From NCBI RefSeq assembly GCF_024022995.1, contig NZ_CP099582.1, positions 1,054,001 to 1,118,000 on the forward strand: a DNA stretch of 64,000 nt. Reading direction: 5' to 3'. The stretch's first letter is position 1; the number at the start of each line of letters is the position of its first letter. Under the pieces are notes generated by a model. That model did not search any database and had not been told where the DNA came from. It saw only the letters and a list, made by a program, of their open reading frames with translations. Source of the DNA: Thermococcus aggregans (lineage in GTDB: Archaea; Methanobacteriota_B; Thermococci; Thermococcales; Thermococcaceae). This document shows, piece by piece, positions 13,728-61,889 of the stretch. The translations under genes were made by a program, and so were the position numbers.

Positions 13728-13780
13728 ATTTTCTTTCATAAAATCTCTTTTAAACTTTCTATTATTCTTTGGTGGGTCAA

Positions 13781-13846
13781 ATGCTGAGAAAGCTTTTCAG
13801 CCAGTGGAAGGCAAAATGTCTGTTTGTTAGAGCGATAGAAAAGTGA
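13781..13846 (+). CDS. Possible 21-aa basic peptide
   Basis: ATG at 13781 opens MLRKLFSQWKAKCLFVRAIEK then stop. GGTGGG lies four bases upstream and TTTTAAACT about 30 bases upstream, so promoter, ribosome binding site and start are properly spaced. The peptide is basic and amphipathic. No family is recognised, and chance is not excluded for so short a frame. Confidence 0.3.
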   Translation: MLRKLFSQWKAKCLFVRAIEK

Positions 13847-13889
13847 CGGCTTGAAAGGAAGAAAAACAAATTTGAGGTTAAGAGGAAGC

Positions 13890-13940
13890 TCAGCTAGTCG
13901 GTCCTTTCATCATTCTATCAGCGACGGGTTTGGTCATCAC
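13890..13940 (-). ncRNA. C/D box guide sRNA overlapping the hisS 3' end
   Basis: Read on the minus strand: box C GTGATGA (13934-13940), 12-nt guide, D' CTGA (13918-13921), 4-nt spacer, C' ATGATGA (13907-13913), 13-nt guide, D CTGA (13890-13893). All four boxes match consensus. The D guide complements 11 bases of the window's 23S (60328-60338), and the D' guide complements 10 (61803-61812). By the N+5 rule the predicted 2'-O-methyl sites are U60331 and G61806. Box C contains the hisS stop codon. Confidence 0.88.
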
Positions 13941-15241
13941 AGCATCTTTTTCACTTCTTCCACGACATTCTCTATGGGAACCTTCGTCTGTTCTCCGCTT
14001 TCCATGTTCCTTATCGTAACTTTTCCTTCAGCGAGATCTCTCTTTCCGAGGATTATAACGACTTTTACTTCTATGCTGTTGGCGTAGTTAAGTGCCTTGC
14101 TCAATTTTCTTCCCTGAAGATCGTACTCTGCTTTGATCTTTGCTTTTCTCAACATCTGAGTTACTTCTATTGCCTTTTTCTTTATTTCGAGGTCATCCCC
14201 TATGTAAGCAACAAACACATCGCTGCCGACTTTAAATTCCGGTAAAAGACCCTTGCTCTCAAGTATTGGGATTAATCTCTCTATGCCAATTGCAAAGCCC
14301 GTTGCAGGTGTGGGCTTTCCACCGAAGACCTCAATCAACTTATCGTACCTTCCTCCGCCGCCTATTGAGCCAATGCCAAGCTCATTGGGGGCAATCGCTT
14401 CGAAGACTATGCTCGTATAGTAGTCAAACCCTCTGGCTATTCCAAAGTCTATCAGTGCGTAGTCCTCAACGCCATAAGCTTTTAGCAGTTCAAAAAGTTC
14501 TTCAATCGTTTTCAGCTCTTCTCTTGCGGTCTCACTTTCAAAAAGCTCATAGGCTTTTGGTAGAACATCATCGGGCTTACCCTTCAGTTCTATTAAAGCA
14601 AAGACTTTCTCTATTCCCTCCTCACTAAGTCCAAAGTTTTTAAGGCTCTCTATAAATTCCTCTCGCGTTATCTTGTCCTTCTTATCGATAAGTCTCATAA
14701 GTCCAACATCGTCTTTCACACCGAGCATTTTTGCAAATTCGTCCAAAAGGACTCTATCTCCTATGTTAACTGTGAACTCCTTCAAGCCGGTGTTGAGGTA
14801 GCTTTCTATAAAAAGAGCGATGACTTCAGCATCTGCTTCTATGTTTTGCGATCCAATGAGCTCAACTCCCGCCTGCCAGAACTCCCTTAGCCTTCCGCTC
14901 TGTGGCTCTTCGTAGCGGAACATGTTTGCTATGTAATACCACCTTATTGGTTTTGGAGCATTTTGAAAAGAGTTCACAAAAAGTCTTGCAACGCTTGAAG
15001 TTAAATCTGGCCTAAGGGCGATGTATCTTCCTCCTTTGTCTTCAAAAGCGTATAACTGTTCAACGACTTCTTCCCCACTCCTCAGCTCAAAGAGCTTCGT
15101 GTACTCAAAGGTTGGCGTCAGTATTTCCTTGAATCCATAAATCTCAAAAACTTCTCTTATTTTCTCAAATACGTATCTTCTTTTCACCATATCCTCGGGA
15201 AGTAAATCTCTCGTCCCTTTAACACGCTGGATTCTATCCAT
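13937..15241 (-). CDS. hisS: Histidyl-tRNA synthetase
   Basis: A 434-aa class II synthetase charging tRNA-His. Motif 1 region is LPEDMVKRRYVFEKI. Motif 2 is RYEEPQSGRLREFWQAG. The HisRS-specific blocks are RGFDYYTSIVFEA and GGGRYDKLIEVFGG, and motif 3 is GFAIGIERL. A C-terminal anticodon-binding domain follows (about residues 330-434). ATG 15241 (MDRIQRVKG) is preferred because GGTGAG lies just upstream. An in-frame GTG at 15250 sits inside that site. The stop codon lies within box C of a guide sRNA. Confidence 0.95.
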   Translation of the reverse strand: MDRIQRVKGTRDLLPEDMVKRRYVFEKIREVFEIYGFKEILTPTFEYTKLFELRSGEEVVEQLYAFEDKGGRYIALRPDLTSSVARLFVNSFQNAPKPIRWYYIANMFRYEEPQSGRLREFWQAGVELIGSQNIEADAEVIALFIESYLNTGLKEFTVNIGDRVLLDEFAKMLGVKDDVGLMRLIDKKDKITREEFIESLKNFGLSEEGIEKVFALIELKGKPDDVLPKAYELFESETAREELKTIEELFELLKAYGVEDYALIDFGIARGFDYYTSIVFEAIAPNELGIGSIGGGGRYDKLIEVFGGKPTPATGFAIGIERLIPILESKGLLPEFKVGSDVFVAYIGDDLEIKKKAIEVTQMLRKAKIKAEYDLQGRKLSKALNYANSIEVKVVIILGKRDLAEGKVTIRNMESGEQTKVPIENVVEEVKKML

Positions 15242-15275
15242 CTCTCTCACCTACCAATTAAGGATAGAGGGGAAG

Positions 15276-19340: not shown

Positions 19341-19407
19341 CACAAATCACCTCCATGTTTTATTATACGCTTGTTATTAAAAAACTTTTCGGAAAAAGAA
19401 GGAGGAA

Positions 19408-19460
19408 TCAGCGAAGCGAAGAGTCCTCATCGTCCCCTCGGGTGTCCTCGGCCTCATCAT
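19408..19460 (-). ncRNA. C/D box guide sRNA downstream of DUF2666
   Basis: Minus strand: box C ATGATGA (19454-19460), 12-nt guide, D' variant CCGA, GGGG spacer, C' variant ACGATGA, 15-nt guide, D CTGA (19408-19411). Total 53 nt, as usual for archaeal C/D sRNAs. The D guide contains TCTTCGCTTC, which complements 23S 61016-61025. The N+5 rule predicts methylation of G61019. Box C begins 12 bases after the DUF2666 stop, so the RNA may be processed from that 3' end. Confidence 0.75.
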
Positions 19461-19472
19461 CTTCAAATTTCT

Positions 19473-35359: not shown

Positions 35360-35412
35360 TCAGACAGGAATCCGGTCATCATCTTGCCCTCAGGATCGGA
35401 AGCGCTCATCAC
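35360..35412 (-). ncRNA. C/D box guide sRNA in the herA-amylase gap
   Basis: Minus strand: box C GTGATGA (35406-35412), 12-nt guide, D' CTGA, 7-nt spacer, C' ATGATGA, 12-nt guide, D CTGA (35360-35363). All boxes match consensus. The D guide complements CAGGAATCCG of the window's 23S (61260-61269); the N+5 rule points to G61263. A leftward TATA-like ATTTTAAAA near 35437-35446 fits a start just before box C. No good target is seen for the D' guide. Confidence 0.82.
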
Positions 35413-56879: not shown

Positions 56880-57000
56880 GGAGCGCCCGAACAGGGCGCA
56901 ACGAAACCCGAGCGCCAAGACGGCGGCGTCGGGGGGACAGGGTGCAAAGCACCCATGATGAACCCCGCCCTCCAGCTCGGGTCACAACAATGTGCGCTCC
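56880..57000 (+). ncRNA. Structured GC-rich leader RNA with H/ACA-like features
   Basis: GGAGCGC (56880-56886) pairs with GCGCTCC (56994-57000). Inside, ACCCGAGC (56906-56913) pairs with GCTCGGGT (56975-56982), followed one base later by ACA (56984-56986). The upper part has GGGG/CCCC, an ATGATGAA internal loop that could form a kink turn, and GGGTGC-AAA-GCACCC. That order (stem, pocket, upper stem with K-turn, ACA) is the archaeal H/ACA layout. SRP RNA and RNase P RNA signatures are absent. Confidence 0.4.
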
Positions 57001-58837: not shown

Positions 58838-58865
58838 CAAAAAATGTCCAGCCCCCAAGTAGGGG

Positions 58866-61889
<3,024 letters not shown>

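Follow-up and report, generated by a model that had tools for sequence, protein, structure and literature searches.

The window, a 64,000-nt stretch of the Thermococcus aggregans genome, carries on its minus strand the histidyl-tRNA synthetase gene hisS, whose 3' end is overlapped by a short sequence with the organisation of a C/D box sRNA. It also includes the 23S rRNA gene with the sites to which the sRNA guides are complementary (Table 1). On the minus strand the sRNA reads GUGAUGA-CCAAACCCGUCG-CUGA-UAGA-AUGAUGA-AAGGACCGACUAG-CUGA, corresponding to box C, D' guide, box D', spacer, box C', D guide and box D.

This arrangement is that of archaeal dual-guide RNAs: a box C of the RUGAUGA type, a CUGA box D, internal C' and D' boxes with archaeal spacing, and rRNA-complementary guides of about 10-12 nt located 5' of boxes D and D', with the target nucleotide at the fifth position from the box. 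The four consensus boxes of the original prediction are indeed present, in canonical spacing, and do not appear in shuffled sequences. The mature RNA probably extends a few nucleotides beyond the core on both sides. The flanks (UGCU and GCUU) allow at most a G-U pair followed by a C-C mismatch as a terminal stem; a strong terminal stem is not universal among C/D box sRNAs. It is very likely that the sequence at 13940-13890 is an archaeal dual-guide C/D box sRNA, a guide RNA as such.

Table 1. Coordinates of the sRNA elements, of hisS and of the 23S sites in the window (g1 is the genus of the window; WC, Watson-Crick pairs)
Feature	Position	Strand	Description	Basis
hisS (histidyl-tRNA synthetase) ORF	13937..15250	-	437 aa from GTG	identity from the original prediction and the sequence
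C/D box sRNA core, box C to box D	13890..13940	-		parsed boxes and guides, orthologue alignment
Box C	13934..13940	-	GTGATGA (GUGAUGA), holds the hisS stop	sequence
D' guide	13922..13933	-	CCAAACCCGTCG (RNA CCAAACCCGUCG)	pairing to 23S
Box D'	13918..13921	-	CTGA (CUGA)	sequence
Spacer	13914..13917	-	TAGA (UAGA)	sequence
Box C'	13907..13913	-	ATGATGA (AUGAUGA)	sequence
D guide	13894..13906	-	AAGGACCGACTAG (RNA AAGGACCGACUAG)	pairing to 23S; kept in most orthologues
Box D	13890..13893	-	CTGA (CUGA)	sequence
23S rRNA gene	58863-61889			window
Predicted D guide target on 23S	60328..60338	+	11 WC; 12 with one G-U
Probable D' guide target in g1	61803..61812	+	10 WC; G61806 at the fifth position from the box
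Alternative D' target (near site)	60373..60382	+	up to 10 WC with g3, g4 and g5 orthologue guides

Orthologues and genomic context

Genera of the Thermococcaceae are designated here by labels, to which names have been attached by inference: g1, to which the window belongs, would be the litoralis/sibiricus group, g3 would be Pyrococcus and g5 the barophilus group; g4 would be Thermococcus proper and include T. kodakarensis (G024, whose rRNA coordinates match those given in PMC9014305). BLAST identified orthologues of the sRNA in 53 of the 94 genomes of the family. A profile built from 27 of these BLAST-found orthologues, in whose alignment the UGAUGA of box C is unchanged, matched 71 of the 94, of which about 58 strongly (at least 45 bits). 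It added five further g5 genomes, where the sRNA is located at hisS. Most complete genomes of the Thermococcaceae carry an orthologue. The boxes and the pairing between guides and targets are conserved, the D pairing being weak or lost in a few Thermococcus genomes. The weak profile hits in g2 and g6 seem to represent a different sRNA with only the first half in common. A second C/D-like family (L106, L107, L104, L103), with the D' guide GUGAAUCCAAUG or a near variant, was observed among the weak profile matches of g1, g2 and g6.

The hisS frame, also on the minus strand, has its last nucleotide at 13937, which places its TGA stop codon (13939-13937) inside box C, in agreement with the original prediction. 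Read in the hisS frame, box C is a tandem TGA TGA (UGA UGA). The hisS transcript is probably the source of the sRNA, which would be carried in its 3' end by co-transcription. About 20 nt beyond box D lies a T-rich stretch (TTTGTTTTTCTT, 13861-13872, minus strand), a plausible terminator; if it acts as such, the hisS transcript would end with the sRNA. By analogy, L7Ae, Nop5 and fibrillarin would bind the C/D and C'/D' motifs and shield the sRNA while nucleases trim the flanks. The sequence itself shows the boxes, their phase, the complementarity, the conservation and the overlap with the stop codon; expression, protein binding and methylation are inferences.

The original prediction stressed the fusion with hisS and suggested possible competition between mRNA and guide RNA. 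That either is special finds no support. In archaea, 25 percent of C/D sRNA genes overlap the 3' end of an ORF and almost half of these have the stop codon in box C; the flanking sequence is dispensable for maturation and the reported effect on the upstream host gene is neutral or slight, at most slightly negative (PMC7994747). Given these frequencies and effects, the hisS fusion appears ordinary. Nothing but the geometry of the overlap speaks for competition between the hisS mRNA 3' end and the sRNA. Moreover, the sRNA gene is found at the hisS stop codon in g1 and g5 only, which makes hisS-specific regulation unlikely. Elsewhere it occupies other places, often the 3' end of guaA. At the Thermococcus locus L016 it is antisense to the 3' end of an amidotransferase ORF resembling the GMP synthase A subunit, and at several other Thermococcus and Pyrococcus loci the sequence ends with the same amidotransferase peptide. 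At the Pyrococcus-type locus L031 the gene is free-standing, approximately 1 kb from a GMP synthase A-like gene. Regulation or competition at hisS was thus rejected as the main function, the sRNA being conserved away from hisS.

Convergent to hisS, a small basic ORF of 36-38 aa (13778-13894, plus strand) is conserved in g1 (MLRKLFNQWKAKCPFVRAIEKWRLERKKNKFEVRKRVS in L007), with substitutions mostly at third codon positions. It is broken by a TGA in the window (TGG elsewhere), and L005 also includes an internal stop. In most g1 genomes, its TAG stop falls opposite the 3' end of the D guide, on the complementary strand. It matched no Pfam family above cut-off.

Two readings other than a guide RNA were considered. 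C/D motifs are short and weakly structured, and the sequence might be a chance motif within an intergenic spacer. However, the strict four-box motif occurs only twice in the window, as the sRNA at 13940-13890 and as sR5 (35360-35412), which Rfam recognises, and was absent when the full window was shuffled 60 times by a first-order Markov model and scanned on both strands. Shuffled guides seldom reproduced the complementarity to 16S and 23S: in-phase runs of at least 10 pairs were obtained with 9 of 600 shuffled D' guides, and runs of at least 11 pairs with 2 of 600 shuffled D guides. Orthologues are found throughout the family, a conservation that already contradicts a chance origin, which can be regarded as next to impossible. 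Alternatively, no guide RNA might be released, and the sequence could act within the hisS 3' UTR as an L7Ae-binding k-turn that controls hisS. The stop codon inside box C would fit such a role, and K-turns have been discussed as possible cis-elements in T. kodakarensis (PMC4247193). Yet genomes in which the gene does not adjoin hisS conserve the guides and boxes too, and both guides match rRNA in phase; a purely cis-acting k-turn is accordingly very improbable.

Target sites on the 23S rRNA

As had been claimed, the guides of the sRNA are complementary to 11 and 10 contiguous nucleotides of the 23S rRNA encoded in the window, and both matches are in phase. The fifth position upstream of box D faces U60331 (23S U1469; E. 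coli U1344 by alignment), whose 2'-O-methylation the D guide would direct. The predicted target is well supported, since the D site (GUUAGUCGGUCC) is invariant in the 23S of all genomes examined and the guide is kept in nearly all orthologues. Four Thermococcus genomes (G023, G024, G030 and G040) have an altered D guide that pairs poorly with this site. At loci L099, L101 and L102 (G024, G040 and G030), the D guide reads GAUGGACCAG, which fits the invariant D site badly.

The situation of the D' guide is more complex. Its predicted target, G61806 (23S G2944; E. coli G2828 by alignment), lies on the 3' side of a hairpin in domain VI, hereafter the distal site. The original prediction overlooked a second in-phase match in the window, with 8 Watson-Crick pairs at 60374-60381. 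At this near site the target nucleotide would be G60376 (23S G1514; position 1387 in E. coli), which is 45 nt away from that of the D guide. The two matches reflect an octamer, ACGGGUUU, present in two separate 23S hairpins, in domains III and VI.

The 23S targets were compared across genera by alignment of the 23S loci. The near site (GAAACGGGUUUA) is invariant in the genomes examined save for one base in G004. The distal site is GACGGGUUUG in g1, g5 and g2, and GACCCGUUUG in most g4 members; in g3 and part of g4 it is GACCCGGUUG or a variant. In Pyrococcus and Thermococcus the distal hairpin appears in flipped form, UCGGG/CCCGU instead of ACCCG/CGGGU, which removes the distal D' target in these two genera. 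Because the 5' strand changes too (ACCCG to UCGGG), the flip is compensated.

The guides differ between genera. The D' guide is CAAACCCGUCG in all 10 g1 orthologues parsed (two with one further change, another with position 1 changed) and UAAACCCGUUG or near variants in g3, g4 and g5. One g1 genome, G078, carries a D' guide mismatch beside the target position, for both the near and the distal sites. The guides of Pyrococcus, Thermococcus and the barophilus-like group pair with the near site (G60376). In computed duplexes, the guide of the window gives -18.5 kcal/mol with the distal and -11.6 kcal/mol with the near site, the g5 guide -14.8 and -14.2 kcal/mol, and the Pyrococcus/Thermococcus-type guide about -4 kcal/mol with its own distal site and -15.5 kcal/mol with the near site. 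The distal duplex is thus clearly favoured in g1, which makes the originally proposed D' target reasonable for that genus. The usual D' target of the family is G60376, and the reading of G61806 applies to g1 only: it has the best complementarity there, whereas three other genera pair with G60376. In g1, G61806 is the most likely site of D'-guided methylation and probably the main target; the guide may also touch G60376.

Other candidate guides were sought. No other AAACCCGUUNCNGA occurs in the genome of the window that could serve as a second guide for the near site. The single AAACCCGUUNCNGA match elsewhere in the genus, L130, was rejected as such a guide since it is without C/D boxes. For a conserved separate distal-site guide in Pyrococcus or Thermococcus, the search pattern was too degenerate to be informative; exact AAACGGGTCNCTGA was found in a handful of genomes only.

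These differences could be explained by a switch of target of the D' guide within the Thermococcaceae. The ancestral guide would probably have aimed at G60376, since two separate 23S hairpins carry the octamer ACGGGUUU. The g5 guide, which fits both sites about equally (with G-U pairs at the ends of one), would represent a two-site intermediate; two U-to-C changes would then have directed the g1 guide to the distal hairpin, while the compensated flip removed the distal site in Pyrococcus and Thermococcus. We give this scenario an even chance. Its direction is a matter of parsimony because the 23S tree left the order of the genera unresolved. Selection for the distal match is suggested rather than shown; a perfect distal match is by itself weak evidence of selection, because the shared octamer leaves only two flanking matches needed.

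The main alternative is that, in g1, the same sRNA still methylates G60376 through its D' guide, which only happens to match 61803-61812. Pairing with G60376 is seen in all other genera, the near site is invariant, and 8 in-phase Watson-Crick pairs persist in the window. In addition, the two targets of an archaeal dual guide usually lie no more than about 100 nt apart (PMC7994747), a distance that G60376 respects. However, each end of the near duplex loses pairing through the two U-to-C changes, which persist throughout g1, and the distal duplex is stronger by approximately 7 kcal/mol. Continued use of G60376 is for these reasons rather unlikely, though it deserves consideration, and G61806 is retained as the probable main D' target in g1.

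If true, retargeting of the D' guide would provide a step-by-step example of how a methylation guide changes its target, along a testable path. It predicts genus-specific methylation, G60376 versus G61806. For P. furiosus, RiboMeth-seq data have reportedly been deposited (PMC7758197).

Comparison with known guide RNAs

What is fresh about this locus is that the D' target has probably changed between genera; the sRNA is otherwise ordinary in kind and place. A literature search by guide sequence returned nothing relevant. The sRNA adds one more annotated guide RNA to a genome where Rfam misses it. The covariance search that had been proposed gave a divided answer: the Pyrococcus orthologue L023 (G004) scores 50.9 bits against Rfam RF00095 (snoPyro_CD), above the gathering score, whereas the copy of the window reaches 25.3 bits for a cut-off of 45. 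Since Rfam calls the G004 orthologue, the sRNA already belongs to a known family in Pyrococcus. L023 exhibits the same boxes and D guide core; the copy of the window differs by its D' guide, its genomic neighbours and its score below cut-off.

Rfam calls elsewhere in the window include an H/ACA guide, Pab19 (56883-56986), just upstream of the 16S rRNA, and a C/D sRNA, sR45 (19406-19464). Both sR45 (RF01274) and sR5 (RF01304) are of the same class and architecture as the hisS-associated sRNA and share its genome. Their guides are different and, unlike it, both reach the Rfam gathering score.

A close parallel in genomic organisation is with the archaeal C/D sRNAs that overlap ORF 3' ends (Tripp et al. 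2017, reviewed in PMC7994747). As in these, a stop codon, here the UGA of hisS, is embedded in box C, and the sRNA of the window is likewise presumably without a separate promoter. There is no difference in kind, hisS being merely the host gene.
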